From contig VWVY01000003.1 of assembly GCA_009846685.1 (NCBI GenBank), forward strand, positions 248,001 through 312,000: a stretch of DNA of 64,000 bases. Reading direction: 5' to 3'. The notes under the pieces are model-generated. The model made no database searches, was not told where the DNA came from, and saw nothing but the letters and a program-made list of their open reading frames with translations. How positions within the stretch are numbered: the stretch's first letter is position 1; the number at the start of each line of letters is the position of its first letter. This DNA comes from Rhizobiales bacterium SYSU XM002 (GTDB lineage: Bacteria; Pseudomonadota; Alphaproteobacteria; Rhizobiales; Beijerinckiaceae). This document shows positions 13,475 through 30,343 of the stretch, one piece after another. Both the position numbers and the translations under genes were made by a program.

Positions 13475-13550
<76 letters not shown>

Positions 13551-13750
13551 TCCTCTAAGTCATTGATTTAGTTGGATTTTTTGCCTCAAGATCATCCCGA
13601 CAACTCCGAGGCTTGACCTGTTCCGTCAGCCATTCGCGCGCCGTCTCAGAACGCATTCGCTGACGTGTTTGGCGCCCTCGCGCGGGTTTTCTCAGCGGCG
13701 GTTTGGTGATTGCCGGCTTTTGACGCGGGTTAGGCAACCCGGCGTGATGT
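13551..13750. other. Non-coding or decayed stretch between tRNA-Ala and the YD-repeat remnant
   Basis: No supported gene. A 69-codon minus-strand frame (13555-13764) is Arg/Pro-rich and matches nothing I recognise. Together with the adjoining remnant up to 13926, this 376-bp gap looks like decayed island-edge DNA. I see no integrase. Confidence 0.4.
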
Positions 13751-13918
13751 TCAATCGTGTACATGCCAAGTGACCAGCATACCCTGCGTATCGTGCATCT
13801 TGCTCTGGGCGCCGCTGACCTCGTCGGCTTCCGAGAGGGTGTTGCCGAAGTTGTCGTAAGTACAGACCGTGTCGGTGTTACGGGCCTCGGCGACGTTGGC
13901 GACGTTTCCGTATGGTGA
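13751..13918 (-). pseudogene. Remnant of an RHS/YD-repeat protein
   Basis: A 55-codon open stretch without a start codon, bounded by stops. It contains SPYGN and then TVCTYDNFGNTLSEADEV, which fit the YDxxGN...D pattern of RHS/wall-associated YD repeats. It abuts the stop of the following CoA-transferase gene and lies just inside the tRNA-Ala end, as expected for debris at an island edge. The assignment rests on one good repeat unit only. Confidence 0.45.
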
Positions 13919-13926: not shown

Positions 13927-14892
13927 CTAAAGACCTCGGAAATGCGCCAAAATTGGCATCGCAAGCGGCGCTTGAGGAATAGCGGTGGGCGCGCCCTCTA
14001 GCATTACTGAGACGCAGCAATCCTCGCCTGCGAAGACACCCTGCCAATGTGCAATCGGCATGGCCATCAGCCGGGTCTGCACGGCTGCTGCATCCGGACT
14101 TTCCGTCTCGCCAAAGCCGATCACGACGCAGAACCGGCGCCAGAATTTCTCCTCGAACGCACCGACAACCACCGCCCCGCCCTCGAGCGGATAGATGCGG
14201 TAGCGGGGCGAGGATCCGCCAAACGGTGAGGCTCCCGGATCGAACCGCCCGGTCGAGAACAGTGCGCCGGTGACATGCGGGATGAAAACGCGGGCATTGT
14301 CGCTGATCGAGATATCGAGAAAACAGCCCTCACCGCTCACCTCCCGCACTCGCAGCGCGAGCAGGATATTGAGTATCGCCGGCAGACTGCCGCCGCCGAC
14401 GTCTGCGAACAGCCCCGGCGGTACCGCTGGGCCACCTGCCACGGCGTCGAACACACCCGCGTCCGCGAGGTAATTGAGGTCGTGCCCGGCCCGCGCGGCA
14501 TTCGGCCCGGTCTGACCATAGCCGGAGATGGCACAGTAGATCAGGCGCGAGTTGCGCGCGCGGATGGCCTCGTAGCCGAGCCCGAGCCGCTCCATCACGC
14601 CGGGGCGGAACTGCGAGATGAGGATATCGGCCTGATCGGCAAGGCGCAGCGCTTCTGCAAGCCCCTCGGGCGCGCGCAGATCGAGTCGGATCACGTGTTT
14701 CGCGCCGTTGAGCGCGTCATAAAGTACGGGACGGCCTCCCGCGAAGGGCGGCACATGCGCCGCATCGTCGCCCTCGAGCCGCTCGATCTTGGTGACCTCG
14801 GCGCCGCAGGCCGCGAGCATCGCGGTGGCATAGGGCCCCGGCAAAAGGGTCGAGAAATCGAGAACGCGGAGACCGGAAAGCGGAAGCGACAT
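13927..14892 (-). CDS. CaiB/BaiF family III CoA-transferase, alpha-methylacyl-CoA racemase-like
   Basis: A 321-residue family III CoA-transferase-fold protein. The N terminus LSGLRVLDFSTLLPGPYATAMLAACGAEVTKIE is typical. The centre carries GHDLNYLADAGVFD, the form seen in alpha-methylacyl-CoA racemases (GHDxNYL) rather than the GYDxxxQ of true transferases. It is shorter than most family members (about 360-400). The likely role is to invert C2 in a 2-methyl-branched acyl-CoA so that both enantiomers can be degraded. It is divergent from a second CaiB protein across an operator at 14953. The last codons abut the RHS remnant, so slight 3' truncation is possible. Confidence 0.75.
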   Translation of the reverse strand: MSLPLSGLRVLDFSTLLPGPYATAMLAACGAEVTKIERLEGDDAAHVPPFAGGRPVLYDALNGAKHVIRLDLRAPEGLAEALRLADQADILISQFRPGVMERLGLGYEAIRARNSRLIYCAISGYGQTGPNAARAGHDLNYLADAGVFDAVAGGPAVPPGLFADVGGGSLPAILNILLALRVREVSGEGCFLDISISDNARVFIPHVTGALFSTGRFDPGASPFGGSSPRYRIYPLEGGAVVVGAFEEKFWRRFCVVIGFGETESPDAAAVQTRLMAMPIAHWQGVFAGEDCCVSVMLEGAPTAIPQAPLAMPILAHFRGL

Positions 14893-14952
14893 GCAAAAAT
14901 GACCCTGAACGGCACGGCACGGATTGCCATGCCTCGCCGGCGACTATAAATA

Positions 14953-14964
14953 GAACGACCGTTC
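14953..14964. promoter_or_regulatory. TetR-type operator O1 between the two divergent CoA-transferase genes
   Basis: GAACGACCGTTC: 5-bp inverted arms with a 2-nt centre. It sits in the 109-bp divergent spacer and is placed to control both genes. The same motif recurs at five other promoter regions of the cluster. Confidence 0.7.
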
Positions 14965-15001
14965 AGGCAATGAATATCATCGCCCCTGCCCCGGAGATCC
15001 G

Positions 15002-16231
15002 ATGTCGCCCCAGCCCCCCTCCCCGACACCCGAAGGCGGCGCGCTCGCCGGGCTCAGGGTCGTCGATCTCACGCGCGTGCTCGGCGGTCCCTACGCGACG
15101 CAGATTCTCGGCGATCATGGCGCGGACATCATCAAGCTCGAACCGCCGCAGGGCGATGAGGTGCGCCAGTGGGGCCCGCCGTTCCATGAGGGCGACGCGA
15201 GCTATTTCATCGGCGTCAACCGCAACAAGCGTTCGCTCAGCGCCGATCTGTCGCGGCCGGAAGGGCGGGAGATTCTCTTCCGCCTGCTGGAGGACGCGGA
15301 TGTGCTGGTCGAGAATTTCAAGGCCGGAACGCTCGAGCGCTGGGGGCTGGGGTTCGACGAGGTGCTTGCGCCGCGTTTCCCGCGCCTGATCCACTGTCGG
15401 ATCAGCGGTTTCGGCTCCGAGGGGCCGCGCGGCGGGCTGCCGGGCTATGACGCGATCGCGCAATGCATGACCGGGATGTTCACGGTCAACGGCACGCCCG
15501 AGAGCGGCCCGACCCGAATCGGCGTGCCGGTCGTGGACATGACAACCGGCCTTTACGCCGTGGTGGGACTTCTGATGGCGCTGATCGAGCGTCAGCGCTC
15601 AGGCAAGGGGCAGTTTCTCGAGGTGCCGCTCTACGACAGCGCGCTCTCGTTCATGCATCCGCATGCTGCGAACTATTTCCTTTCCGGCAAGCTGCCGAAA
15701 CTCACCGGCAACGCCCATCCCAACATCAGCCCCTACGATACCTACAGCACCGCCTCGGTTCCGGTGTTCCTCGCCATCGGCAACGATGCTGCCTATGCGA
15801 AGCTCTGCACGGCGCTCGGATGCCCCGAACTCGCGCGGGACGAGCGCTTCCTTACGAACGGCCTGCGCGTCACCAACCGTGAGGCGCTCAAGGTGGAAAT
15901 GGAGGCACGACTGGTCACGCGGGAGGGCGTGGCGTTGTGCGACGAACTCCTCGCCCTTGGCCTGCCTGCCGGAGCGATCCGCACACTCGACGCGGCGTTC
16001 GAGGATCCGCAGGCGGTCCATCGCGGCGCGACCCTCGCACAGGATTGGTATCGCGGCGTCAACACGCCGCTGCGCTTCTCGCGCTCGCGCTCAGGGTTGC
16101 GACACCTGCCGCCGAAACTCGGCGCGAACGGCGCGGCAATTCTCGCCGAAGCCGGTTTCGACGATGGTGAGATCGCAAATTTGAAGGCGGCTGGAATCGT
16201 GCGCTTGCCGGACGAGGAGGCGCGATCATGA
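15002..16231 (+). CDS. CaiB/BaiF family III CoA-transferase
   Basis: A 409-residue family III acyl-CoA:carboxylate CoA-transferase. Seen: GLRVVDLTRVLGGPYATQILGDHGADIIKLE, the loop NRNKRSLSADL, and LPGYDAIAQCMTGMF holding the catalytic aspartate (GYD). Normal length. The start at 15002 is preceded by GGAG. It may load CoA onto the imported acid from a CoA donor. It begins a tight operon: its stop overlaps the DUF35 gene by 4 bp. Confidence 0.9.
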   Translation: MSPQPPSPTPEGGALAGLRVVDLTRVLGGPYATQILGDHGADIIKLEPPQGDEVRQWGPPFHEGDASYFIGVNRNKRSLSADLSRPEGREILFRLLEDADVLVENFKAGTLERWGLGFDEVLAPRFPRLIHCRISGFGSEGPRGGLPGYDAIAQCMTGMFTVNGTPESGPTRIGVPVVDMTTGLYAVVGLLMALIERQRSGKGQFLEVPLYDSALSFMHPHAANYFLSGKLPKLTGNAHPNISPYDTYSTASVPVFLAIGNDAAYAKLCTALGCPELARDERFLTNGLRVTNREALKVEMEARLVTREGVALCDELLALGLPAGAIRTLDAAFEDPQAVHRGATLAQDWYRGVNTPLRFSRSRSGLRHLPPKLGANGAAILAEAGFDDGEIANLKAAGIVRLPDEEARS

Positions 16232-16605
16232 GCGGCATCACCCCTCTCACCCCTCCTCTCTCGCCGCTCGCACAATTCGAAGCGGGGCTCACCCACGGCG
16301 GCATCACCATCGCGCCCGAGGCCCCACCCGCGCGGCGCTTCCCCCCGCGTCTCGGCGCTGGATCCGACACGCAGCATGCGCTCGCGACCACCGGTACGGT
16401 CTACAGCGCGACCCATGTTTCGACCCGCGCCGGCAGCCATATGCTGGCACTGATCGACCTGACGGACGGCGGGCGACTGCTCGCGCGCTTACGCGGCGAA
16501 ACGGACGCCAGCGCTGCGATTGGCGCGCAGGTAGCACTGGCAACGGACCGGCAGGATGACGAGCCGGCCCTGACCTTCACGCGGATAGCAGAGGGCGCAC
16601 GATGA
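16228..16605 (+). CDS. DUF35 OB-fold protein, thiolase partner
   Basis: A 125-residue protein of the DUF35 acyl-CoA-associated OB-fold type. It has TGTVYSATHVSTRAG, then MLALIDLTDGGRLLARL and a short hydrophobic beta-rich C terminus. The N-terminal zinc-ribbon cysteines of many DUF35 proteins are absent. DUF35 proteins pair with SCPx/Ltp2-type thiolases (for example in steroid side-chain retro-aldol cleavage, and IpfE in ibuprofen degradation). The 4-bp overlaps with the genes on both sides, including the thiolase, support a complex. The similarity is weak in sequence; context carries much of the call. Confidence 0.7.
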   Translation: MSGITPLTPPLSPLAQFEAGLTHGGITIAPEAPPARRFPPRLGAGSDTQHALATTGTVYSATHVSTRAGSHMLALIDLTDGGRLLARLRGETDASAAIGAQVALATDRQDDEPALTFTRIAEGAR

Positions 16606-17753
16606 GAACGTCCCTGCGCGGCAGCGCCGCCATCGTCGGTATCGGGCTTGCGGGGATTCCGGCGATGCCGCCGGGCTCTACCCCGGTCGATTGCATGGCG
16701 CTCGCGGCTTTGGCGGCGCTCATGGACGCAGGCATCGCGCCGGAGGAAGTCGATGGCGTGTTCGCATCCGGTCTCCAGATGCTGATGCCGGCACTCGGCC
16801 TGTGCGAATACCTTGGCCTCGCGCCGCGCCATGTCGACGGCACGCAGGTCGGCGGCTGCGCGCCGCTCGTGCAGCTCAACCACGCGCGCCAAGCCATTGC
16901 CAGCGGCACCTGCGAGGTGGCGCTGATCGCCTATGGCTCGACGCAGCGCTCGTCCGGAGCGGCCTTCGCGTCGCTCTCCGAGCCGCTGGTGTTCGAGCAA
17001 GGCCTCGGCTGGCCCGGCCCGGTGGCGGCCTATGCGATGATCGCGCAGCGCCACATGCACGACTTCGGCACCCGCCGTGAGGACTTCGCTGAGGTCGCAG
17101 TCGCGGCGCGGGAATGGGCGCGACTCACACCGGGCGCAACCGCGCAAGGGCCGTTGACGATCGAGGACGTGCTGGCCGCTCGGCCGATTGCCTCGCCTTT
17201 CGGCTTGCGTGATTGCTGCCTCGTGACCGATGGTGGCGGCGCGCTTGTCGTGGTCTCGGCCGAACGCGCAAAATACATGAAGGCGCCGGTTTACGTGCTC
17301 GGGTCGGCGGAAATCGCCACTCACCGCTCCATCGCGGCGATGCCGGATCTCGTGCACACCGGCGCGGCGATTACCGGTGCGCGCGCCTTCACCGAGGCGG
17401 GGCTGAGCCCGCCGGACATCGATGTCGCGCAACTCTACGACGCCTTCACCGTCAACCCAATCGTCTTTCTCGAAGACCTCGGTTTCTGCGCCAAGGGCGA
17501 GGGCGGCCCCTTTGTGCGCGATGGTGGCATCGCGCCCGGCGGGCGGCTTGCGGTTAACACCAACGGCGGAGGGCTCTCGTTCTGCCATCCTGGGATGTAT
17601 GGCGTCTTCACGTTGATCGAGAGCGTGTTGCAACTGCGCGGCGGGCTCGGCGCGCGGCAGGTCGCGGGCGCAAAAACCGCGCTCGCCCATGCGCCCGGCG
17701 GGTTCATGGCCAGCCACGCGACCGCGATCCTCGGGACGCCCGAAACCCTCTGA
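16602..17753 (+). CDS. SCPx/Ltp2-type thiolase-fold enzyme (lipid-transfer-protein family)
   Basis: A 383-residue thiolase-superfamily protein of the non-specific lipid-transfer/SCPx group. GGCAPL at residues 84-89 puts a cysteine (Cys86) where these thiolases have their nucleophile. The C-terminal half holds LYDAFT (278-283), NTNGGGLSF (319-327) and CHPGMYG (328-334), the normal family landmarks. With its DUF35 partner it could act as a thiolase or as a retro-aldolase releasing acetyl- or propionyl-CoA. It is closest in context to the IpfD role in ibuprofen degradation. The reaction is not proven by sequence. Confidence 0.8.
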   Translation: MRTSLRGSAAIVGIGLAGIPAMPPGSTPVDCMALAALAALMDAGIAPEEVDGVFASGLQMLMPALGLCEYLGLAPRHVDGTQVGGCAPLVQLNHARQAIASGTCEVALIAYGSTQRSSGAAFASLSEPLVFEQGLGWPGPVAAYAMIAQRHMHDFGTRREDFAEVAVAAREWARLTPGATAQGPLTIEDVLAARPIASPFGLRDCCLVTDGGGALVVVSAERAKYMKAPVYVLGSAEIATHRSIAAMPDLVHTGAAITGARAFTEAGLSPPDIDVAQLYDAFTVNPIVFLEDLGFCAKGEGGPFVRDGGIAPGGRLAVNTNGGGLSFCHPGMYGVFTLIESVLQLRGGLGARQVAGAKTALAHAPGGFMASHATAILGTPETL

Positions 17754-17820
17754 ACCTGAAAATCGACCTGACGCACCGACCGCGCTTGACAAGCGGGCCA
17801 TCGCACTCAATAAATAAACC

Positions 17821-17832
17821 GAACGGTCGTTC
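17821..17832. promoter_or_regulatory. TetR-type operator O2 upstream of the Rieske dioxygenase genes
   Basis: GAACGGTCGTTC, 18 bp before the dioxygenase alpha start. Read on the other strand, the 20-nt block TAGAACGACCGTTCGGTTTA is shared with O3. Confidence 0.75.
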
Positions 17833-17849
17833 TAACAAATAGGCGCAAC

Positions 17850-19142
17850 ATGACAGCCCAGACCATCACACCGGAGGCACCCAAGGCGCGGCCCGATTTC
17901 CCGGCCCTGATCAAGGAAAACCGCGTCCATTCCTCGCTCTATTACGACGAGGCGATTTTCCGCGAGGAGCTGGAAACCATCTGGTACAAGGGCTGGGTCT
18001 ATGTCGGCCATGTCTCCGAAGTGCCGAAGAAGAACGATTACGTCACCAAATCCATCGGCCCGACGCCGGTGCTGCTGATCCACAACCGCCACGGCGAGAT
18101 CAGCCTGCTGCAAAACAAGTGCCCGCATCGCGGCAACCAGCTCTGTGCCTACCAGAAGGGCAACCGCACCTCCTTCACCTGCCCCTATCATGCCTGGACC
18201 TTCGCGAATTCCGGCGAACTCACCGGCCTCGCCTACCCTGACGGCTACGAAGGTCTCGACAAGAGCGAGTTCTCGCTCGGCAAGGTGCCGCGCATCGGGA
18301 TCTATCGCGGCTTCATCTTCGGCTCGATGGCGAAGGAGGGCATTTCGCTCGACGAGCACCTCGGCGACGCGAAGCGCGTCATCGACCAGCTCCTCGACAA
18401 TTCGCCCACGGGCGAACTCGATCTTTCCGCCGGGTTCCTCCAGCACCGTACGCAAGCCAACTGGAAGTTCGTGCTCGAGAACGAGACCGACGGCTATCAC
18501 CCCGGTTCGGTGCATGGTTCGATCTTCCAAGTCGCGTCCTCGCCGGTGCCGGGGCTCTACAAGCCCGACAGCCTCGCCCTCACCCGCGATTACGGCAACG
18601 GCCACACCGAATTCGATCTGCGCCCGCAGTGGCGCCACTTCGACAAGCCGCTGCACTGGTTCAACACCAGCGCCGAGAAGCTGCCCCTCTATGTCGCGGC
18701 CATGAATAAGGCCCATGGCGAAAAGCGCGCCCGCGAGATCATGATCGACGGCTCGCCCCACGCGATGATCTTCCCGAACCTCTTTATCGCCGAGATCCAG
18801 ATGTTCGTGATCCAGCCGGTGTCGGTCAACGAGACGATCCAACACGTCACCGCGATCCAGTTCAAGGACGCGCCGGATATGAACCGCCGTCTGCGCCAGC
18901 AGACCATGGGATCAGTCGGCCCTGCCGGGTTCCTCCTCGCCGACGACACCGAGATGTACGAGCGCAACCATCGCGGCGCGATGATCCGCAACCCTGAATG
19001 GATCGTGCTCTCGCGCGGCCAGGCCCGCGAAACTCGCGACGAGGACGGCCACCGCATCGGGCATTCCACGGACGAGGTGACTCAGCGCGGCATCTGGCGC
19101 CACTACCTCAAACTGATGACCGAAAACCAGAAAGACGCGTGA
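17850..19142 (+). CDS. Rieske non-heme iron aromatic dioxygenase, alpha (large) subunit
   Basis: A 430-residue oxygenase alpha subunit. Rieske [2Fe-2S] ligands are Cys91/His93 (CPHRG) and Cys111/His114 (CPYHAW). The mononuclear iron facial triad begins with ETDGYHPGSVH (Asp214 bridge, His217, His222), with a likely third ligand at Asp365/366 (LLADDTEMY). It is a complete, intact enzyme. Together with the beta subunit 7 bp downstream it should dihydroxylate an aromatic ring; context (CoA ligase, SCPx thiolase, DUF35) suggests an aryl-acetyl-CoA-type substrate as for IpfA. The electron donor is probably the reductase at 22328 via a ferredoxin not found here. Confidence 0.93.
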   Translation: MTAQTITPEAPKARPDFPALIKENRVHSSLYYDEAIFREELETIWYKGWVYVGHVSEVPKKNDYVTKSIGPTPVLLIHNRHGEISLLQNKCPHRGNQLCAYQKGNRTSFTCPYHAWTFANSGELTGLAYPDGYEGLDKSEFSLGKVPRIGIYRGFIFGSMAKEGISLDEHLGDAKRVIDQLLDNSPTGELDLSAGFLQHRTQANWKFVLENETDGYHPGSVHGSIFQVASSPVPGLYKPDSLALTRDYGNGHTEFDLRPQWRHFDKPLHWFNTSAEKLPLYVAAMNKAHGEKRAREIMIDGSPHAMIFPNLFIAEIQMFVIQPVSVNETIQHVTAIQFKDAPDMNRRLRQQTMGSVGPAGFLLADDTEMYERNHRGAMIRNPEWIVLSRGQARETRDEDGHRIGHSTDEVTQRGIWRHYLKLMTENQKDA

Positions 19143-19149
19143 GGCGAGC

Positions 19150-19683
19150 ATGATCGAAGAACTGGACGCCAAACTCGCCGTCGCCCCACCGATCGCACTC
19201 GATGCCAAGGCCGTCGAGACCCTACGCGCAGTCGAGCAGTTCCTCTATTACGAGGCGCGCCTGCAGGACCAGCACGCCTATGACGAATGGGAAAGCCTGT
19301 GGGCGGATGACGCCATCTACTGGGTGCCGGCCAACGGCGAGGACACTGATCCCGAGACCCAGATGTCGTATATCTACGACAACCGCTCGCGCATAAGCGT
19401 GCGGATCAAGCAGCTCAAGACCGGCAAGCGCCACACCCAGACGCCACGCTCGCAACTCGCGCGGATTATCTCCAACATCGAGCTTTTGAGCGACGCCGCC
19501 GAGGGCATCAGCGTGCGCGCCAATGCAATGATCTACGAGGAAAGCCTGCGCGGCGTCACGATCTGGGCCGCGCGCAACGACTATCGCTTGCGCCGCGACG
19601 GGAGCAGCTTCAAGCTCGTGCGCAAGAAAATCGTGCTCGTGAACAACAACAAGCCGATCTACACGCTCTCGTTTCTCGTGTGA
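19150..19683 (+). CDS. Ring-hydroxylating dioxygenase beta (small) subunit
   Basis: A 177-residue NTF2/SnoaL-fold beta subunit that stabilises the alpha subunit as an alpha3beta3 hexamer. Seen: EQFLYYEARLQDQHAYDEWESLW at the N terminus, DDAIYWVPANGED, and the C-terminal KIVLVNNNKPIYTLSFLV. Normal length. It is co-transcribed with the alpha subunit, 7 bp apart. The short 3' gap to the enoyl-CoA hydratase has no operator, so that gene is probably in the same transcript. Confidence 0.92.
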   Translation: MIEELDAKLAVAPPIALDAKAVETLRAVEQFLYYEARLQDQHAYDEWESLWADDAIYWVPANGEDTDPETQMSYIYDNRSRISVRIKQLKTGKRHTQTPRSQLARIISNIELLSDAAEGISVRANAMIYEESLRGVTIWAARNDYRLRRDGSSFKLVRKKIVLVNNNKPIYTLSFLV

Positions 19684-19771
19684 CTTGCCTTGTCTGACCA
19701 CCGACTGAGCGGTTGCGGTCGCGCGCTTTTTCATGGTCTGATCGCTCGATCTTTTTTTGGAGCTTAGCCGC

Positions 19772-20578
19772 ATGACCGATACGTCCCCCCACCTCTCCGA
19801 AGGTCCGGTGCTCCTCGAGATCACGGAGGGAATCGCGACACTCACGCTCAACCGGCCCGAACAGGCCAACGGCATGAATCTCGCGCTGATGAAGGCGCTT
19901 CACGAGGCCGCAATGCGCTGCCATCGCGCGCCCAATCTTCGTGTCGTGCGGTTGCGCGGCGCGGGGAAGAACTTCTGCGCCGGCGGCGACGTGCGGGAGT
20001 TCGCGCAGCAGGGCGACGGCATCGGCGACTACATGCGCGAGGTCACCGCCTGGCTTCAGGCCGCCGTGGGCGTATTGATCCGTCTCGACGCGATCGTCAT
20101 CACCGAGGTTCAGGGCTTCGCGGCGGGCGGAGGCGGGCTGGGGCTCGTTTGCGCCTCCGACATCGTGATTGCAGGCGAGAGCGCGAAATTCCTCGCCGGA
20201 GCAACGCGCGTCGCCATGGTACCGGATGCCGGCGCTTCGGTGATCCTGCCCCGCCTTGTCGGATTCCGGCGGGCGATGGAAATCCTTGTCTCCAACCGCG
20301 GGATCCCGTCCGAGGAAGCGCTGGCGATCGGGCTCATCACCCGCCGCGTGCCGGATGCCGAACTGGCGAGCACTGCCGAGGCCATGGCGAAGGAGGTCGC
20401 GCAGGGCGCCCCGCTCGCGCTCGCGAACATGAAGCGTCTGTTGTGGAACGGCCTTGGTGTTGAAACCGTACTGCCCGAGGAAGCGCGCACGCAATCGCTG
20501 CTGTGCGGCACCGAGGACGCCGCCGAGGGGCTGCGCGCCGTGATCGAGAAGCGCACACCGCATTTTACGGGCCGCTGA
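19772..20578 (+). CDS. Enoyl-CoA hydratase/isomerase family protein
   Basis: A 268-residue crotonase-fold protein. The oxyanion-hole segments are RLRGAGKNFCAGGDVREFA and ITEVQGFAAGGGGLGLVCASDIVIA. The ATG at 19772 has GGAG nine bases upstream and is chosen over an in-frame TTG at 19757. The substrate is unknown. In this cluster it could hydrate or isomerise a CoA-thioester intermediate after ring attack. The catalytic glutamates of classical hydratases are not obvious, so isomerase or hydrolase activity is possible. Confidence 0.88.
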   Translation: MTDTSPHLSEGPVLLEITEGIATLTLNRPEQANGMNLALMKALHEAAMRCHRAPNLRVVRLRGAGKNFCAGGDVREFAQQGDGIGDYMREVTAWLQAAVGVLIRLDAIVITEVQGFAAGGGGLGLVCASDIVIAGESAKFLAGATRVAMVPDAGASVILPRLVGFRRAMEILVSNRGIPSEEALAIGLITRRVPDAELASTAEAMAKEVAQGAPLALANMKRLLWNGLGVETVLPEEARTQSLLCGTEDAAEGLRAVIEKRTPHFTGR

Positions 20579-20580
20579 GT

Positions 20581-21309
20581 ATGGAACCCGCGCCTCCAGC
20601 GCTAGTGACGGGCGGCGCGAGCGGCATCGGCGCGGCGATCACACGCGCGTTCCGTGCGGCGGGGCATGCCGTCACGTTCTGCGACCGTGACGGCGCGGCG
20701 GGCGCGGCGCTCGCGCGCGAGACCGGCGCGGCCTTCATCGAGATGGACGCCACGGATGACGCCGCCATTGCGGCGCTTTTCGCGTCTCAGGGCCCGTTCG
20801 GCGTGCTCGTCAACAACGTCGGCGCCGACCAGCACGCCTTCTTTACCGAGACCACCCGCGAGGATTGGCGGCACCTGCTGGGCGTGAACCTTGAAACCGT
20901 GTTCGCCTTCACCAAGGCAGCCCTCCCCGCGATGCAGGCGGCGCGCTACGGGCGGGTCGTCAACATCGCCTCCGAGGCCGGGCGCATGGGTTCGAAGGGC
21001 GGCGCGGTCTATGCCGCCGCGAAAGCCGGCGTAATCGGCTTCACCCGCTCGATCGCCCGCGAGAACGCGCGCTACGGCATCACCGCCAACGCGATTCTTC
21101 CTGGCCCGATCCGCACGCCGATGGTCGCGCGCGGCATCGCGCAATACGGCGAAAAGCTGGAGCGTGACATGGCCGGCTTCACGCTGATGAAGCGTATCGG
21201 TGAACCCGAAGAAGTCGCGGCGGCGGCCCTGTTTCTCGGCTCGCGCGCGGCCTCCTTCATCACCGGTGAGGCGCTTGGTGTATCGGGTGGCATGGGTTGC
21301 GGAGCCTAG
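20581..21309 (+). CDS. Short-chain dehydrogenase/reductase (SDR)
   Basis: A 242-residue classical SDR. The cofactor motif is TGGASGIGAAI and the stabilising motif is NNVGA. The catalytic Ser-Tyr-Lys triad is unusually written: NIASEAG then VYAAAKAG. It starts 2 bp after the enoyl-CoA hydratase stop, so it is translationally coupled. Its 3' end overlaps the convergent alpha/beta hydrolase by 4 bp. The likely role is an NAD(P)-dependent oxidation in the pathway, for instance of a cis-dihydrodiol or a hydroxyacyl-CoA; which one cannot be read from sequence. Confidence 0.88.
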   Translation: MEPAPPALVTGGASGIGAAITRAFRAAGHAVTFCDRDGAAGAALARETGAAFIEMDATDDAAIAALFASQGPFGVLVNNVGADQHAFFTETTREDWRHLLGVNLETVFAFTKAALPAMQAARYGRVVNIASEAGRMGSKGGAVYAAAKAGVIGFTRSIARENARYGITANAILPGPIRTPMVARGIAQYGEKLERDMAGFTLMKRIGEPEEVAAAALFLGSRAASFITGEALGVSGGMGCGA

Positions 21310-22214: not shown

Positions 22215-22279
22215 GTCACCTCCCCTTTGAGCGGCTGCGGCATCGCTTGCTTGCGTGGCACGCGTTTTTGTTATTTATA

Positions 22280-22291
22280 GAACGACCGTTC
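22280..22291. promoter_or_regulatory. TetR-type operator O3 between the hydrolase and ferredoxin reductase genes
   Basis: GAACGACCGTTC with the same flanks as O2. A further palindrome, GAACATTGTTC, follows at 22303-22313, just before the ribosome site of the reductase. It is placed to control both divergent genes. Confidence 0.75.
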
Positions 22292-22327
22292 GGTTTAATA
22301 AAGAACATTGTTCCCGGAGGAGCCTCC

Positions 22328-23530: not shown

Positions 23531-24130
23531 GGCGCTCCGCTCGCCGGCACAGCCGTTGAGCACCATATCGACGACATGATCGGCGAGATCCGCGGGCTTC
23601 ATCGCGCCATCCGGGCGATACCAAGTGTAGGCCCAGTTGATCATGCCGAAAAACAGCATGGTGTCGATGTTGATGCGCCCACGCGCGCGGTTGGCGTCGC
23701 TTTCGAGCGCCTTGAGGATGTTGCGCACATGCGAGACCAGCTCGCGCTGCTTGTCGACCAGTTCCTCGCGCTTGGCCGGGGGCAGGAATTCCATGCAGGT
23801 CAGCAGGACGATATGGGTTGCGCGGGAGGCCGCGTAGACCTCCATGAAGTTGCGCGTGATGGCGATGAAGCGGGCGCGTGGATCGGGGTTCTGCGCGACG
23901 AGCTCGCGCGTTTCCTCGACCAGCCGTTCGACATGCCCGCTCAGCATGGCGATCAGGATCGCCTCCTTGGACTCGAAATAGTGGTAGAGCCGCGATTTGG
24001 AGCACGCGCAGGCCGCCGCGATATCGCCGATGGAACTCGCAACGTAACCACGCGAGGCAAAGAGCTGCGCGGTTTTCCCGAGGATCATCTCCTGGATGTT
24101 GTCGTAGTCCGGCGATCGTGTTCGGGCCAA
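23486..24130 (-). CDS. TetR-family regulator, probable repressor of the catabolic island
   Basis: A 214-residue TetR/AcrR protein. The helix-turn-helix reads SSIGDIAAACACSKSRLYHYFESKEAIL; the C-terminal domain has the TetR_C-like MEFLPPAKREELVDKQREL block. It is the only regulator in the island. A degenerate copy of the island operator lies just upstream (24152-24163), consistent with self-control. The ligand is likely a CoA-thioester or an aromatic acid, as for other TetR regulators of such pathways; this is inference. The C-terminal 15 residues overlap the reductase gene on the other strand. Confidence 0.85.
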   Translation of the reverse strand: MARTRSPDYDNIQEMILGKTAQLFASRGYVASSIGDIAAACACSKSRLYHYFESKEAILIAMLSGHVERLVEETRELVAQNPDPRARFIAITRNFMEVYAASRATHIVLLTCMEFLPPAKREELVDKQRELVSHVRNILKALESDANRARGRINIDTMLFFGMINWAYTWYRPDGAMKPADLADHVVDMVLNGCAGERSASAQAASGIKAGVRH

Positions 24131-24151
24131 GGCGATGTACTCGTCATGTTT

Positions 24152-24163
24152 GAACGGACGATC
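24152..24163. promoter_or_regulatory. Degenerate operator O6 upstream of tetR
   Basis: GAACGGACGATC differs from the O2 core GAACGGTCGTTC at two positions. Its place just before the tetR start suggests weak autoregulation. Confidence 0.4.
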
Positions 24164-24214
24164 GCCTAATACGGCCTGCTTTCCCGCATGGCAATGCGTT
24201 CGATCAAGCAGCCT

Positions 24215-25537
24215 TCAGCCCTTCCCGGAGCGATGGAGAACCCGCACCGCCTTCGCCTCGTAGCGCGGCAGTGTGCCGAAGGGATGGCACTCGACCTCGA
24301 CGCCGATCCCGATCCGGGCGTGGATTTCACGCTTGAGGTCGACAACAATCTCGACCGCCGGGCGCGGATCCTCCCGCTCGCTCTCGACCGCGACCAGCAT
24401 CGAGGAGATCGTCGTCGCTTCCTTGTCGACATAGATCTGCCAGGCTTCCTTCACGGTGCCCGGTATGCCCGCGATGATATCCTCGACCTGCGAGGGGAAA
24501 ACGATGACGCCCTTCACTTTCAGCATATCGTCGGTGCGGCCGATCAGCCGCCCGATGCGGCGCATGCCACGCCGACCCGATGGGCAATCATACGGCTTGG
24601 GCGATAGGCGCACGAGATCGCGCGTGCGCCAGCGAACGACGGGCGAGGCCTCACGGCACAAGGTGGTCACGACGATCTCGCCCACCTCGCCTGGCGCGAC
24701 CGGCTTGAGTGTCGCGGGGTCGAGAATCTCGGTGATGACCGTATCCTCGTTGACGAGCTGCAATTCATCCTCGGCATGAGTGAAGGGCGTGGAGATCGCA
24801 AGGATCGGCCCGCCCGCCTCGGTGGTGCCATAGATGTTGTGGCTCATGAAGCCCTCGGGCATCTCGGCTTCGAGCTGCGCACGGAATTCCGCCGAGACCG
24901 ACTGGCCGCCGAGGATGCCAATTTTCAGCGCCCAGTCCTTCTTCGGGTCCATGCCAGATTGCTTGGCGAGGGTGATCAGCGACATCAGCCAGAGCGGCGA
25001 CATCGAGGCGACTTCGTATTGATGGTCGCGCAGCCACTGGATCGCAAGTTCGCCGCGCCCCGGCCCGAGCGGAAAATTCGGGCAGCCCAGCGCCTCGAAG
25101 CCAGCATCGAGCGCCGGCCCGCCGATCCACAGCCCGTAGCCGTAGCCCTGATAGGCGCGCTGGCCGCGCTGCACACCGGCCGCGCTCAGAACCCGCGCCA
25201 TCTGGTAGGGCAGCAGCTTGCGGAAGTCGTTCGGCGTCATACCGAACAGAACCGGCAAGCCCGTGGTGCCAGAGGTCGCGATGAAGCGCTCGATATTCTC
25301 GACCTTGTCCGCCAGGAATGGAAAGGGATAGCGCGCGCGCAGGTCCGATTTGTCGAGGAACGGGGCGTTGGCAAGCCCGTCCTCGCTCGCAAGATCCTGC
25401 GGCTTCATACCCGCCGCCTTGAAGTGTTCCACCCACTCGGGCATCGCGGCAAGGCGTGTGCCGAGCGTTACGATGTTCTTGCGCTGGATCTTGTGGATCC
25501 CCTCGGCGTCAAGCGTTTCCACGTCCGGGTGAATCAT
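24215..25537 (-). CDS. Phenylacetate-CoA ligase-like AMP-forming enzyme
   Basis: A 440-residue ANL-superfamily acyl-CoA ligase of the PaaK group. The phosphate loop is SGTTGLPV (residues 89-96), followed by SHNIYGTTEAGGP and RWRTRDLVRLSP, then GRTDDMLKVKGVIVFPSQVED, the C-terminal hinge block of PaaK proteins. ATG 25537 has GGGAG nine bases upstream; an ATG at 25555 is possible. It would activate an aryl-acetate-like acid with ATP and CoA, the first step of the pathway; IpfF of ibuprofen degraders is the same type. It has its own operator, O4. Confidence 0.9.
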   Translation of the reverse strand: MIHPDVETLDAEGIHKIQRKNIVTLGTRLAAMPEWVEHFKAAGMKPQDLASEDGLANAPFLDKSDLRARYPFPFLADKVENIERFIATSGTTGLPVLFGMTPNDFRKLLPYQMARVLSAAGVQRGQRAYQGYGYGLWIGGPALDAGFEALGCPNFPLGPGRGELAIQWLRDHQYEVASMSPLWLMSLITLAKQSGMDPKKDWALKIGILGGQSVSAEFRAQLEAEMPEGFMSHNIYGTTEAGGPILAISTPFTHAEDELQLVNEDTVITEILDPATLKPVAPGEVGEIVVTTLCREASPVVRWRTRDLVRLSPKPYDCPSGRRGMRRIGRLIGRTDDMLKVKGVIVFPSQVEDIIAGIPGTVKEAWQIYVDKEATTISSMLVAVESEREDPRPAVEIVVDLKREIHARIGIGVEVECHPFGTLPRYEAKAVRVLHRSGKG

Positions 25538-25598
25538 CGACCGGCACTCCCTCATTCCGCAGGCGCGGGTTGTCCCGCTGTTGGATAATTTATAGTCC

Positions 25599-25610
25599 GA
25601 ACGGTTGTTC
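25599..25610. promoter_or_regulatory. TetR-type operator O4 upstream of the CoA ligase gene
   Basis: GAACGGTTGTTC, one mismatch from the O2 core, in an AT-rich context (TTTATAGTCC...TATGTAAA). It lies 61 bp before the ligase start. Confidence 0.65.
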
Positions 25611-25645
25611 TATGTAAAGCGCATGCCGATCCGTCACCACGGATT

Positions 25646-26347
25646 TCAAAGCCCGAGATAGCTCTCCCGGATGCGCGGATTCTCGATCAACTCGCGCCCC
25701 GTCCCCGATAGCACGATCATGCCGGTCTCCATCACGTAGCCGCGATCCGCCACCGAGAGCGCCCCAAAGGCGTTCTGTTCGACAAGCAGCACCGTGACAC
25801 CCAGGGCCTTGAGCGATTTCACCACCTCGAAAATCTGCGCCACGAGCAACGGCGCGAGGCCCATCGAAGGCTCGTCCAGCAACAGACAGGAGGGGCGCCC
25901 CATCAGCGCGCGGGCGATCGCCAGCATCTGCTGCTGCCCGCCGGACAGCCCGCCGGCATTGAGGTTTCGCTTCTCGCGCAGCACCGGAAACATCGCGAAG
26001 GCATCGTCCATGTCCTTGTCGACGCGGGTATCAGTGTAGAGATAGGCACCCAGTCGCAGGTTCTCCTCCACGGACAGATTGGTGAAGATCTGCCGCCCTT
26101 CCGGCGAGAGCGCGAGCCCGCGCGCGAGCCGCCGGAAGCCGGGCACAGCCGAAATATTCTCGCCGCGGAAGGTGATCGTTCCACCCGCGACCGGCTGGGC
26201 GCCGACGATGGTTTTCAAGAGCGTCGTCTTGCCCGCACCGTTCGCACCGACAACCGTGACGATTTCACCGGAATGGATCTCGATATCGATACCGTGCAGC
26301 ACCTCGATACGCCCGTAAGCGGCGCGCAACCCCTCAACCACCAGCAT
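25646..26347 (-). CDS. livF: Branched-chain-type ABC transporter ATPase (LivF)
   Basis: A 233-residue ATPase of the HAAT/Liv family. Walker A GANGAGKTTL, signature LSGGQQQMLAIARAL and Walker B CLLLDEP are intact. It overlaps livG by 14 bp. It is last of the five-gene livKHMGF-type import operon. The substrate is probably the aromatic or branched acid used by the island rather than an amino acid; this follows from context only. Confidence 0.93.
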   Translation of the reverse strand: MLVVEGLRAAYGRIEVLHGIDIEIHSGEIVTVVGANGAGKTTLLKTIVGAQPVAGGTITFRGENISAVPGFRRLARGLALSPEGRQIFTNLSVEENLRLGAYLYTDTRVDKDMDDAFAMFPVLREKRNLNAGGLSGGQQQMLAIARALMGRPSCLLLDEPSMGLAPLLVAQIFEVVKSLKALGVTVLLVEQNAFGALSVADRGYVMETGMIVLSGTGRELIENPRIRESYLGL

Positions 26348-27134
26348 GGGAGCCCTCCTGCTGCACGCCGAGATAGGCCTCGATCACGCGCGGATCGCGG
26401 CTGACGGTCGCGGGATCGCCCTCGGCGATCTTCTCGCCGTGATCGAGCACGACGATGTGGTTGGAGATGCGCATCACCATTTTCATGTCGTGCTCAACCA
26501 GCAGGATCGCGGTGCCTTCGTGAGCGATTTCTTCGATCAGCCGGTCAATTTCCTCGGTTTCGGTCGCGTTGCAGCCCGCCGCCGGTTCATCGAGCAGCAG
26601 CACTTTCGGGGAGAGCGCGAGGGCCCGCGCGATTTCCAGCCGCTTGAGCGACCCGTAGGAGAGCGCGCCCGCCTCGCGCTCCGCGGCACGCTCCAACCCG
26701 ACCCGTGCAAGAAGCGCGCGCGCGGCAGCCTCGATAGCGCGGGTGCGGGAGCGAGCGGTGGGCCAGTTCAAAAGATCCGCGAAAAGCGAGCCCTTCTCCT
26801 TGAGATGGAATCCGCTCATCACGTTCTCGAGAACGCTCATTGCCGGGAAGATCTGGAGATTCTGGAAGGTGCGCGAGAGTCCACGGCGTGCGAGCAGGTG
26901 CGATGCCATGCCGGTCACAACCTCCCCATCAAGCCGCACCGAACCGGACGCGGGCATATAAAGCCCCGAGATCATATTGAACAACGTCGTCTTGCCCGCC
27001 CCGTTCGGCCCGATGATCGAAACGATCTCGCCTGGTTTGAGCGCGAAACCGACATCATGCACCGCGCGCAGCCCGCCGAAAACGATCCCGAGGCCCTCGA
27101 CCACGAGCAATGGTCTTCCCGTTTCCGTGCTCAT
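26334..27134 (-). CDS. livG: Branched-chain-type ABC transporter ATPase (LivG)
   Basis: A 266-residue ATPase. Walker A GPNGAGKTTLFNMISG, the LivG-specific long insert, signature LSYGSLKRLEIARALA and VLLLDEPAAG are present. The ATG at 27132-27134 (MSTETGRPLLVVEG) overlaps the livM stop by 4 bp. A longer open frame upstream is out-of-frame livM sequence and is not part of the gene. Confidence 0.93.
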   Translation of the reverse strand: MSTETGRPLLVVEGLGIVFGGLRAVHDVGFALKPGEIVSIIGPNGAGKTTLFNMISGLYMPASGSVRLDGEVVTGMASHLLARRGLSRTFQNLQIFPAMSVLENVMSGFHLKEKGSLFADLLNWPTARSRTRAIEAAARALLARVGLERAAEREAGALSYGSLKRLEIARALALSPKVLLLDEPAAGCNATETEEIDRLIEEIAHEGTAILLVEHDMKMVMRISNHIVVLDHGEKIAEGDPATVSRDPRVIEAYLGVQQEGSHAGG

Positions 27135-28087
27135 GTGCCCCTCCCCCGGATCAAGGCCAGCAAGCCGGGCACGATTCCTTGCCGCAAGTAGATCATCACC
27201 AGCATCATGATGAGGCCGAGTGCGATCTGCTCGTATTGGTCGAAGGCGGTGAGCACCTGCGGCAGCAGGGTCAGCACAGCGGCGCCGAAAATCGCGCCGA
27301 GGACCGAACCGACACCGCCGAGCACCGCCATGGTCACCATCTCGATCGAGTGCATGTAACCCGCGATATCCGGCGTCACGAGCCGGTTCTGAAGCGCGAG
27401 GAGCGAACCGGCAACCGACGCGTAGACCGCCGAAATCACAAAGGCGGAAAGTTTCGCGCGCGCGACATCGATGCCCACTGTCGCTGCAGCGGTCTCCGAG
27501 CCGTGCAGCGCGCGCAAAGCCCGCCCCGTCGCGCGTTCGTTGAGGTTCAGCGCGAGCCAGGCGCCGATCAGCATCGCGAGCGCATTTACGAAATACCAGA
27601 ACTGGCCGGTGGTGAGCCTGAGCCCGATCCCCGCGAGCCAGCCCCGCAGCCCGAGGTCCGCCACCTGCATGCCATCCGGCCCGCCAGTGATCGCGCTCTC
27701 GTTGGTGAGCACCATCGAGACAAGAATGCCGAAGCCGAGGCTCGCGACGCCGAGGTAATAGCCCTTGAGCCGCAGGATCGGCCGTCCGACGAGAAACGCC
27801 AGCCCCGCGGAAACCAGCGCGCCGAGAACCAGCGCCGCGCCGGGGTGCAGCCCGAGATGCACGGGAGCAAGCGCGCAGGCATAGGCGCCGATGCCGGCGA
27901 ACCCGGCGTGTCCGAGGCTGATCTGGCCGGCATAACCGGTGAGGATCACGATTCCGATGACGGCGAGGCCATTCACGCACACCAGCGACGCGACGCGGTA
28001 GTAATAGCTCGACGGAAAGAACAGCGGCGCGACCGCGACAACCGCGAGCAGCACCAGCAGCGCCGAATATTTATGGGAAAGCCGCAT
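27131..28087 (-). CDS. livM: Branched-chain-type ABC transporter permease (LivM)
   Basis: A 318-residue permease with about nine to ten hydrophobic segments and the LivM signature GYAGQISLGHAGFAGIGAYA. GGVGSVLGAIFGAAVLTLLPQ near the C terminus is the coupling region. The start is ATG at 28085-28087. There is a 2-bp gap after livH and a 4-bp overlap with livG. Confidence 0.93.
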   Translation of the reverse strand: MRLSHKYSALLVLLAVVAVAPLFFPSSYYYRVASLVCVNGLAVIGIVILTGYAGQISLGHAGFAGIGAYACALAPVHLGLHPGAALVLGALVSAGLAFLVGRPILRLKGYYLGVASLGFGILVSMVLTNESAITGGPDGMQVADLGLRGWLAGIGLRLTTGQFWYFVNALAMLIGAWLALNLNERATGRALRALHGSETAAATVGIDVARAKLSAFVISAVYASVAGSLLALQNRLVTPDIAGYMHSIEMVTMAVLGGVGSVLGAIFGAAVLTLLPQVLTAFDQYEQIALGLIMMLVMIYLRQGIVPGLLALIRGRGT

Positions 28088-28089
28088 GG

Positions 28090-28965
28090 TCACACCCGAT
28101 TCACGGTGCGGAGCCCGAACAGCCCCTGCGGTTTGACGGAAAGCAACACGAGGATCACGATAAATGCGACCGCATCCTTGTAATGCGAGGAGAGGTAGCC
28201 GGCTGTCATGGCCTCGAGCACACCGAGCAACACCCCGCCGACCAGCGCGCCCTTCGGGTTGCCCATGCCGCCGAGCATCGCCGCCGCGAACCCCTTGAGC
28301 GCCAACGGCACCCCAACCTGATAGCTCGTGAGCGTGATCGGGCTGATCAGCACGCCCGCTAGCGCGCCGATTGCCGCTGAGACGCCGAAAGAGAGTGTCA
28401 TCATGAAATCGGTGTCGATGCCGGCAAGACGCGCAGCGAAGCGGTTGTTCGCGGTTGCGAGCACTGCAAGCCCGGTGATGGTGCGCGTGAAGAAGAGGTA
28501 GAGCGCAGCGAACACTACCAATGCGCCGCCGATCACCCATAGACTCTGCGGTGTGATCGTGGCACCGAGTAGCCGCAGCGGCTCATCGCCGGAGAAGGCC
28601 GGCAGGCGGTGGATGCCCTTGCCGAACACCACCTGCACGACGCCTTGCAGGAAAATCGAAGCGCCGATGGTGATGATAATCAGCGAGACGATGGGCGCGT
28701 TGCGTGCCCGCTCGATCGCGAGTTTGTTGAAGGCGATGCCGATCATCGCCGTACCCATTACCGCTATCAGCGCCGCGAGCGGCAGCGGCAGCCCCGCCTG
28801 AAGCGCGAAAACCGTGCCCATGCCGCCCAGCATCACGAATTCGCCCTGCGCGAAATTCACGACGTCGGAGGCATTGTAGATCAGCGTGAATCCAAGCGCG
28901 ATCAGCGCATAGACCGCACCGACCGTCACGCCCGAGACCGCGAACTGGAGGAAATCGGACATCAT
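28090..28965 (-). CDS. livH: Branched-chain-type ABC transporter permease (LivH)
   Basis: A 291-residue permease. It has multiple membrane segments, the motif GFTLIYNASDVVNFAQGEFVMLGG near the N terminus and GGMGNPKGALVGGVLLGVLEA near the C terminus. Tandem ATGs at 28963-28965 and 28960-28962 follow GGAG; the first is chosen. It lies downstream of livK across a 103-bp spacer with a strong hairpin. Confidence 0.93.
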   Translation of the reverse strand: MMSDFLQFAVSGVTVGAVYALIALGFTLIYNASDVVNFAQGEFVMLGGMGTVFALQAGLPLPLAALIAVMGTAMIGIAFNKLAIERARNAPIVSLIIITIGASIFLQGVVQVVFGKGIHRLPAFSGDEPLRLLGATITPQSLWVIGGALVVFAALYLFFTRTITGLAVLATANNRFAARLAGIDTDFMMTLSFGVSAAIGALAGVLISPITLTSYQVGVPLALKGFAAAMLGGMGNPKGALVGGVLLGVLEAMTAGYLSSHYKDAVAFIVILVLLSVKPQGLFGLRTVNRV

Positions 28966-29017
28966 GAAAAGCTCCGGGAGACAACCGCCACCGAGGCGGG
29001 CCTGACTGGGCAACCAA

Positions 29018-29038
29018 GGGGCGGCATGACGCCGCCCC
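29018..29038 (-). other. Hairpin between livK and livH
   Basis: Perfect 8-bp arms (GGGGCGGC and GCCGCCCC) around a 5-nt loop, 30 bp after the livK stop. It has no T-run. Such hairpins often protect the mRNA of the binding protein, which is needed in excess over the membrane parts. Confidence 0.5.
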
Positions 29039-29068
29039 GCTTTCAGCTTGCCGTATGTGCCGACCCGA

Positions 29069-30214
29069 TCATTTCACGAGATCGAAACCGCCCTGCTTGA
29101 TTTCGAGCATGCGGAATGAATCGAGATCAAGGCCCAGGTGATCGGTCTTCGACATCGTGACCGTGCCGGTGGTACCGACGAGCTTCGAGGTCGTCTCGAT
29201 GGCATCGCGGATATCGGTCGCCTTCAACGATTTCGCGCGCCCGGCGGCGTCAACAAAGATCGCAAAGGCATCATGTGCATAGCCACCGAAGGTCGAGACC
29301 GGCTGACTGGTGGCCTTCTCGAAGAGTGTCATGTAATCCTTGGCGACCTTCTTCTGCGGATCGCTGTCAGCGAGTTGATCAACGACAAGCATCGCGGTGC
29401 CAGGAATGCGCACACCGTCAGCCTCCTTGGCGCCGGCGAGCTTGATGAAGCTGAACGAGGCGACACCGTGGCTCTGATAGAGCGGCGCCTTGATGCCGAG
29501 CTGATGGTAGTTGCGCGTCACGATAGCCGGCCCCTGCCCGAAGCCTGGCGTCACGATCGCCTGCACCTCGGCATTGCCGCGAATCGTTGTGAGCTGCGGC
29601 GTCATGTCGGTATCCTTGGGACCATAGGTCTCGTCCACCAGGATCGTCATACCCCATTTCGGCGCAACCGCCGTGCACTGCTTGCGCATCGAGGCGCCGA
29701 AACCGTCGGTGCCCGAAAGCATCGCGATTTTCGAGAAGCCGCGCTTCTTGATGTCGTCGAAAATCTTCTCGCAGGCCATCTTGTCGGTGTGCGGCGTCTT
29801 GAAGGTGTAAGCCCGCACCGGCTCGACGATCTCGATCGCACCGGCGAGCGAGATGAACGGCACCTTGGCCTCTTCCGCGACCGGGATCACCGCCATCGAT
29901 GCGCCGGTGGTGGAGCCGCCGATGATCGCGACAACACCGTCCTCTTCCACGAGACGTGTCGCGAAGGTCTTGGCCTTGTTGGGATCGCCGCCGTCGTCAT
30001 AGATCGTGAGCTTGATCTTCTCGCCCTTGATGCCCCCCTTGGCGTTGATCTGCTCGACGAGGAGCCGCAGCGTCTTGGCCTCCGGGTCACCCAGGAAGGA
30101 CGCAGGTCCGGTTTCCGAAAGCGTCGCACCGAGCTTGATTTCGGCGCGGACAGTGAAGCCAAGTGCGAGGCTCGCAACACCCGCGAGCGCGATAGCCTTC
30201 CAATGCGATGTCAT
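29069..30214 (-). CDS. livK: Periplasmic substrate-binding protein of the ABC importer (LivK-type)
   Basis: A 381-residue type I periplasmic binding protein. The signal peptide is residues 1-24 (KAIALAGVASLALGFTVRA). The mature start IKLGATLSETGPASFLG and the segment VVAIIGGSTTGASMAVIPVAEE are typical of the Peripla_BP_6 group. The ATG at 30212-30214 has a near-perfect AGGAGG; a longer upstream frame is unlikely. It is first of the importer operon and preceded by operator O5. Confidence 0.93.
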   Translation of the reverse strand: MTSHWKAIALAGVASLALGFTVRAEIKLGATLSETGPASFLGDPEAKTLRLLVEQINAKGGIKGEKIKLTIYDDGGDPNKAKTFATRLVEEDGVVAIIGGSTTGASMAVIPVAEEAKVPFISLAGAIEIVEPVRAYTFKTPHTDKMACEKIFDDIKKRGFSKIAMLSGTDGFGASMRKQCTAVAPKWGMTILVDETYGPKDTDMTPQLTTIRGNAEVQAIVTPGFGQGPAIVTRNYHQLGIKAPLYQSHGVASFSFIKLAGAKEADGVRIPGTAMLVVDQLADSDPQKKVAKDYMTLFEKATSQPVSTFGGYAHDAFAIFVDAAGRAKSLKATDIRDAIETTSKLVGTTGTVTMSKTDHLGLDLDSFRMLEIKQGGFDLVK

Positions 30215-30343
30215 AACGTCCTCCTTGAGAGCCCCTTTCCCTGACGGGGCGAAGCGCTTGTTGTTCACCGGCTTGCCGCCGAGTTGTTTAGGCGAACGAC
30301 CGAGCTTGATACGGACGAAGCCTCCTGATACGCCCTAATAATT

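Follow-up and report, generated by a model that had tools for sequence, protein, structure and literature searches.

A composite, patchily inherited gene island in a Rhizobiales genome, probably directed at an aromatic acid via its CoA thioester and an Ipf-clade Rieske dioxygenase

Does a gene cluster in Rhizobiales bacterium SYSU XM002 that resembles the ibuprofen genes ipfABDEF amount to an ipf operon, or has it been assembled from related parts into something else? We addressed this question in a 64,000-nucleotide stretch (the window, G000:C9:248001-312000) of a 3.46-Mb genome in 15 contigs, within which the gene set occupies positions 13927-30268, its parts being assigned by Pfam and NCBIfam profile matches. 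The sequence-only reading had held that the set combines exactly the five ipf components, for which our reference is plasmid pIBU218 of Rhizorhabdus wittichii MPO218 (locus L004; ipf names given by gene order and content). The families it named are present, namely coenzyme A (CoA)-transferase, DUF35 protein, SCPx-like thiolase, Rieske alpha and beta subunits, hydratase, SDR, esterase, ligase and importer, but it overlooked a ferredoxin reductase. Our own view, held with somewhat better than even confidence, is that this is no ipf operon but a composite, patchily inherited island through which an aromatic acid would be processed via its CoA thioester and an Ipf-clade Rieske dioxygenase. Gene content, kinship, motifs and conservation are observed directly; from these we infer the reactions and their order, the substrate being most likely an aryl-acetic or 2-aryl-alkanoic acid. 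Searches of open PubMed Central (PMC) papers listed no match to a published pathway with such a gene make-up.

Kinship with the ibuprofen system is clearest in the dioxygenase, whose alpha subunit (17850-19142, plus strand; Pfam, alignment and tree) is followed by a beta subunit (19150-19683, plus strand; Pfam Ring_hydroxyl_B) that is 42% identical to its pIBU218 counterpart. The alpha subunit is 42.7% identical by BLAST, and 41.3% over the tree alignment, to the IpfA-like alpha subunit of pIBU218; over the same alignment it shares 30% with XylX, 30% with NdoB and 33% with an IacC-like protein. A 91-row quick tree was assembled from the window, the same-genus genome G016, seven plasmid loci (out of 40 matches listed, 940 records having matched), 80 further loci from among the matches listed (at least 80 exist) and one locus each from G018 and G003. 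Since it held no named benzoate or naphthalene enzyme, we built a 40-row tree from 37 of those rows and the three named references just mentioned. In the latter tree the window's alpha subunit and IpfA fall within a 23-row clade (support 100/99) that leaves XylX, NdoB and the IacC-like protein outside, and a nested 16-row clade (99/97) holds the window without IpfA; the corresponding grouping in the quick tree covers 46 of 91 rows with support 99. The proposed alliance with IpfA is thus borne out, and no clustering with benzoate-type enzymes is seen; given the roughly 30% identity to XylX and NdoB and the position of both outside the clade, we rejected a benzoate/toluate- or naphthalene-type dioxygenase, salicylate enzymes lying beyond the scope of this tree. 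We likewise rejected a benzoate-type identity for the 24-row outgroup of the quick tree, as the three members scanned (L061, L050, L080) score far under the benA, antA and hcaE cut-offs; an anthranilate-labelled Acinetobacter protein sits in an apparent iac (indoleacetate) cluster, so named from gene order. Residues C91, H93, C111, H114, D214, H217 and H222 are invariant in the alpha alignment, and among them we take the iron-binding residues to lie. The best solved relatives of the alpha subunit are ring-hydroxylating dioxygenases; aromatic rings are the usual targets of such two-subunit enzymes and, to our knowledge, Rieske dioxygenases accepting CoA thioesters are known mainly from the ibuprofen system.

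The genes that follow the dioxygenase set the window's sub-clade apart. They encode ECH, a crotonase with a PaaG-type Asp (19772-20578, plus strand, alternative open reading frame (ORF) start at 19757; Pfam ECH_1), an SDR oxidoreductase (20581-21309, plus strand, start uncertain, the ORF being listed from 20503; Pfam adh_short_C2) and an HSL-family alpha/beta hydrolase, the esterase (21306-22214, minus strand; Abhydrolase_3, 237.7 bits to a GESAG-type HSL profile and thus under its cut-off of 430). We counted neighbours in the fetched flanks, several of which end at contig ends (e.g. L018, L019, L036), at identity thresholds of 50% for ECH, SDR and ligase and 38% for the HSL-type hydrolase and Thl, the SCPx-like thiolase homologue. 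The loci were divided into 37 other members of the sub-clade (38 with the window), eight that complete the IpfA-containing clade (pIBU218, three Binatota, three DK17-type loci and L043, which the tree sets nearer the window) and 43 outgroup loci. ECH occurs in 30 of the 37 (25 of 28 when only loci of 19 kb or more are counted; L001 falls just under the threshold) and in none of the eight; the SDR is found in 14 of the 37 (14 of 18 proteobacterial loci), the hydrolase in 15 (15 of 18 proteobacterial), the ligase in three and Thl in none, the last being matched in four of the eight, one of these matches being IpfD itself. The count for each of these is 0 in the 43 outgroup loci. The core loci come from alpha-, beta- and gammaproteobacteria as well as actinobacteria, and Asp152 of ECH, at the PaaG position, is invariant in all 31 aligned sub-clade sequences; its role we presume from work on PaaG. 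ORFs for AMP/CoA ligases are also commoner in the flanks of IpfA-clade loci than outside (29/46 versus 8/43; Fisher 3e-5, kinship ignored). This conserved core points to ECH and the SDR as the steps that would follow ring attack.

Three clusters come closest to the window, those of Xanthobacter oligotrophicus (L008), Rhizobium alvei (L037) and G016 (L096). They share its Liv importer, alpha-beta-ECH-SDR genes, HSL-type hydrolase, ferredoxin reductase, TetR regulator and ligase at 50-87% identity, but lack the window's kind of Thl. The first two differ further by encoding a ferredoxin and an HMGS-like/OB protein, with the start of a thiolase visible in L037, and G016 differs by adjoining paaABC and a pcaF-type thiolase. 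This comparison is one of the points on which the claim of exactly five ipf parts finds no support: these clusters show no such Thl but keep ECH, SDR, esterase, ligase and importer. HMGS-like/OB-fold fusions occur in 25 of the 38 sub-clade loci (e.g. L037 19422-20876; L002 16342-17832), and the 25 HMGS-like proteins, aligned and inspected by eye, lack a conserved Cys at the position usual for synthases of this fold; the L037 protein as query found no match in the window's genome, an empty answer that alone proves nothing.

Such a core admits an alternative that we rate highest among those considered, though less likely than not and below the composite island: a Rieske version of the phenylacetyl-CoA (Paa) strategy, in which a CoA-bound dihydrodiol would pass to a PaaG-type isomerase and the SDR, the ring would open without free catechol and beta-oxidation would follow, with Thl/DUF35 (HMGS-like/OB plus thiolase in the relatives) acting late. 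The conserved dioxygenase-ECH(-SDR-hydrolase) core and its PaaG-like invariant Asp agree with it; CoA activation and this PaaG-type Asp are what the window shares with the Paa pathway. No ring-cleaving dioxygenase is named in the annotation of L001, L002, L003, L005 and L006, the PLSDB tables being incomplete, whereas pIBU218 carries bphC near its ipf genes. Moreover, the G016 flank holds paaA, paaB, paaC and a pcaF-type thiolase over curated cut-offs as well as an ECH-3HCDH fusion, though their placement there may be fortuitous. On the other hand, ECH scores far under the PaaG (162 of 345 bits) and EchA19 (169 of 400 bits) cut-offs, and we identified no enzyme to open such a dihydrodiol. From the Paa pathway itself the window differs by a Rieske dioxygenase in place of PaaABCDE, a ligase under the PaaK cut-off and a separate paa cluster elsewhere in its genome. 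Positions 1-6171 of L096 carry paaABCD adjoining the Rieske cluster, and these genes reach only 50-65% identity to their counterparts in the genome of the window. A broader idea, which we advance only tentatively, is that the core embodies an undescribed aerobic strategy whereby a Rieske enzyme would act on an aromatic acyl-CoA, a crotonase would rearrange or open the CoA-dihydrodiol without free catechol, and C-C cleaving modules (YDAF aldolase/DUF35, HMGS-like/OB plus thiolase, Paa-type thiolase) would be interchangeable.

Returning to the composite island, its ligase (24215-25555, minus strand; AMP-binding_C_2) belongs to a PaaK-like subfamily distinct from PaaK itself. It reaches 266.1 bits against TIGR02155 (PaaK), whose cut-off is 646.3. 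The genome's own paa cluster lies on contig C10, with PaaK (730.8 bits), PaaG (379.1) and PaaZ (996.8) all over curated cut-offs and PaaA and PaaC matched, so the island ligase, 33% identical to that PaaK, is a paralogue, and we rejected it as the genome's phenylacetate ligase. Nor is it of the IpfF type, from which it differs in family (26% identity over 143 aa, E 0.05). Its nearest counterparts are ligases of three Variovorax plasmid records (56-57%), the next of the 264 matching records standing at 36.8%, and the same three records top the plasmid listing for Thl at 64-65%. The two of these clusters that were examined (L092 on RA8 plasmid 2 and L093 on VAI-C; ligase at 57%) are Paa-like CoA clusters whose oxygenase candidate is a weakly AurF-like protein accompanied by a 2Fe-2S reductase. 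They also hold genes for an OB protein, ECH, a dehydratase of MaoC type and the Liv importer, to which L093 adds PaaN over its cut-off and a CaiB2-like transferase. Unlike the window, they have no annotated Rieske dioxygenase. That ligase and Thl travel together with another oxygenase in Variovorax suggests that one kind of acid may be attacked by alternative oxygenases in the two settings. The AurF-like protein of L092 scores 25.3 bits, under the Pfam cut-off of 29.6; it and the reductase lie at 11739-13788 of L092 and recur in L093, and the former matches 5 of 72,556 plasmid records.

The dedicated importer that had been proposed is also there, encoded on the minus strand by livF (25646-26347; ABC_tran and LivF profile), livG (26334-27107; ABC_tran, BCA_ABC_TP_C), livM (27131-28087) and livH (28090-29013; both permeases BPD_transp_2), and livK (29069-30268; Peripla_BP_6, best PDB matches 3sg0 and 4dqd). 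We set the livG start ourselves; the open frame extends to 27980, and the LivG profile match starts at residue 289 of this long frame. LivK, the substrate-binding protein, shares 42.6% identity with its counterpart next to the ipf genes of pIBU218. The LivK orthologues of L008, L037 and L096 stand at 41-42% in that comparison, whereas the six remaining ORFs for binding proteins that were matched in fetched loci reach at most 30%.

Upstream of the dioxygenase lies a module that sets the window apart from its closest relatives, consisting of CaiB2 (15002-16231, plus strand; Pfam and PDB matches), a family-III CoA-transferase of transferase type without the racemase motifs, a DUF35/OB-fold partner (16228-16605, plus strand; 125 aa, Pfam OB_ChsH2_C at 33.1 bits against a cut-off of 27.1) and Thl (16602-17753, plus strand; NCBIfam PRK06158 at 525.8 bits, the cut-off being 421). 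Neighbouring genes of the module (CaiB2/DUF35 and DUF35/Thl) share four bases at each junction, and the same strand continues into alpha-beta-ECH-SDR. The closest PDB entries to CaiB2 are 4ed9 and formyl- and HMG-CoA transferases, and a 395-bit relative is found in the Variovorax VAI-C cluster. Residues 279-282 of Thl read YDAF, at a place where the alignment gives HDCF for SCPx thiolases and NEAF for degradative thiolases; IpfD also has YDAF, and its DK17-type relatives have YDPF. The Tyr of this motif is described in PMC12329534 as the catalytic base of the thiolase-fold aldolases Ltp2 (YDHF) and Sal (YDCY), a class known there from steroid side chains, and because of this match Thl is likelier a retro-aldolase than a thiolase. 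A true SCPx or degradative thiolase was rejected on the same motif and on the lack of a conserved nucleophilic Cys, a Cys near the aligned place occurring only in the window's Thl and being replaced by Gly, Ser or Ala in the proteins nearest to it.

The thiolase fold, the YDxF Tyr and a DUF35 partner are shared with Ltp2-ChsH2 and Sal-Shy, but the position of Ltp2 Tyr344 is occupied by His (within CHPG) and that of Sal Cys304 by Ala, leaving the second catalytic residue of those aldolases unmatched, and the DUF35 protein has no Cys at all, which excludes a zinc finger. As a candidate counterpart of IpfE, which likewise lacks a complete zinc-cysteine set, it aligns over only 35 residues (46% identity). 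IpfD and its group keep a Tyr in LSGFY at the Tyr344 position. In a quick tree of the thiolase homologues Thl groups with Variovorax and Rhodobacterales proteins (support 96), and the group that it forms with L092-L095 and the second, Thl-type protein of the DK17-type loci L007, L042 and L047 has 89, whereas IpfD groups with YDPF proteins (99), on a long branch. The presence of an IpfD-type protein alongside a Thl-type one in each of L007, L042 and L047 argues that the two types have different jobs. Among the 38 sub-clade loci, five thiolase queries found a YDxF protein only in the window and an HDCF protein in 23 others.

These data bear on a strict Ipf-type scheme, which we consider rather unlikely: ipso 1,2-dioxygenation of a 2-aryl-alkanoyl-CoA, release of the acyl-CoA by Thl/DUF35 through retro-aldol cleavage, and cleavage of the resulting catechol elsewhere. 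This is the ibuprofen chemistry of pIBU218, which requires a catechol 2,3-dioxygenase (PMC9195938). The scheme would account for the alpha subunit's clade, the YDAF common to Thl and IpfD, the presence of a DUF35 partner, and the related Liv binding protein. It would also find a use for CaiB1 (13927-14892, minus strand), an alpha-methylacyl-CoA racemase-type CoA_transf_3 protein that would fit a 2-methyl acyl-CoA. The motifs GHDLNY, ADVGGG and AFEEKF of CaiB1 agree with the racemase pattern GHDxNY/ADxGGG/xxExxF, whose residue roles we assume to apply, and its best PDB matches are alpha-methylacyl-CoA racemases over residues 2-298. The racemase-like label is hence justified except for the C-terminal part, which is absent: homology stops near residue 296-298, the protein has 321 aa against 375-380 aa in its relatives in L094, L095 and L037, and the end of its frame faces the tRNA flanking the island. 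CaiB1 may thus be non-functional. Racemase-type CaiB proteins in L037 (380 aa, all three motifs), L008 (two of three, the frame start not being fixed) and the pIBU218 stretch (GHDLNY, cut by the stretch end) make a 2-methyl-acyl-CoA substrate possible for the group.

Several differences nevertheless separate the window from a strict Ipf system. Its ligase is of another family, its alpha subunit lies in a separate sub-clade, and Thl stands apart from IpfD by tree and by motif (CHPG versus LSGFY), with both types co-occurring in three loci. ECH, SDR and esterase are extra, CaiB1 is shortened, and the closest clusters do without Thl. The window also has no adjoining catechol 2,3-dioxygenase, and the BphC of pIBU218 as query yielded a single, partial 24-bit match in the whole genome, which weakens a catechol route yet still allows it. 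Further right in the window, at 51058-52473, lies the gene for homogentisate 1,2-dioxygenase (HgmA). A third alternative, in which the substrate would be not an aryl-alkanoic acid but a 2-methyl-branched one of alicyclic, terpenoid or steroid-like type and the dioxygenase would act later or on another ring, we hold to be improbable, for the racemase-type CaiB of the window, L008, L037 and (cut) L005, the FAD oxidoreductases of many sub-clade loci and the steroid side-chain aldolases of the Thl fold are offset by the usual aromatic-ring attack of two-subunit dioxygenases, the ring-hydroxylating relatives of the alpha subunit, the PaaK-like ligase and the absence of that FAD family from the window. 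The family in question, whose scanned member is an FAD oxidoreductase of amine-oxidase type, is present in 17 of the 38 sub-clade loci (e.g. L041 6480-7835).

The composite island thus appears Ipf-like in what would be its first two steps, CoA activation and oxidation of the resulting ester by a dioxygenase akin to that of Ipf. Handling of an aromatic acid as its CoA thioester fits because the alpha subunit belongs to the IpfA clade and Thl combines YDAF with a DUF35 partner, and the whole is best read as a lineage of Rieske pathways on CoA thioesters that has so far gone unrecognised. In the scheme we propose, the Liv ABC importer would bring in the acid and the PaaK-like ligase, not the genome's phenylacetate ligase, would convert it into the CoA thioester. 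The Ipf-clade dioxygenase would then dihydroxylate the ring with electrons delivered through the FAD-dependent ferredoxin reductase (22328-23530, plus strand; Pyr_redox_2 and Reductase_C) and a ferredoxin encoded elsewhere, and the CoA-bound dihydrodiol would be handled by the PaaG-type crotonase and the SDR. The second module, CaiB2, DUF35 and Thl, extra in the window, would most likely cleave a beta-hydroxyacyl-CoA by retro-aldol chemistry. Should this larger lineage likewise prove to act on CoA esters, more ways of removing aryl-alkanoic acids and drugs would be known; a direct test is feasible with one ligase, one dioxygenase, one crotonase and one SDR.

Several observations weigh against this interpretation. 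The cluster encodes no ferredoxin, and none of the genome's nine Fer2-family matches lies on contig C9. Besides HgmA, the genome has a PcaGH-like pair and two matches to the LigB family, so that a catechol route is still conceivable. ECH at 50% identity is not seen in 7 of the 37 other sub-clade loci, and no AMP-ligase is found in the fetched flanks of 17 of the 46 IpfA-clade loci, some in both counts being cut by contig ends. Finally, Thl has no orthologue in the genomes of G016 (best 34%), L008 or L037 (best 32-33%), leaving its pathway role to rest on its operon position in one genome and its co-occurrence with the ligase in Variovorax.

The term island is apt in the sense of patchy inheritance, since among 17 same-genus genomes (own included) an alpha orthologue exists in only one other, G016 (87% identity), the matches in the remainder being at most 41% identical. 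G016 retains the core at 62-87% identity, but the 20 kb compared contain neither CaiB2 nor DUF35 nor Thl. No empty site could be demonstrated in the same-genus genomes, the best match to the tRNA flank lying on a different contig in the 14 others with a match to MoeA, the gene described next.

The remaining features of the region are of lesser consequence. A TetR-family regulator (23486-24130, minus strand; Pfam) lies between reductase and ligase. A 360-aa antisense ORF (22295-23377) was discarded as a gene, having no Pfam or NCBIfam match and being overlapped by the plus-strand reductase. To the right of the set follow a MoeA fused to a PBP-like domain (31223-33151), matched in 15 of the 17 same-genus genomes (own included), and then a vitamin-B12/iron-type importer; 20 other proteins of the window were scanned and are ordinary. 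To its left lies a tRNA-Ala(CGC) (13475-13550, plus strand; ARAGORN), and about 214 bases just past the end of this tRNA (13545-13758) recur at 88% identity at G000:C14:96541-96755, perhaps marking the boundary of an element.

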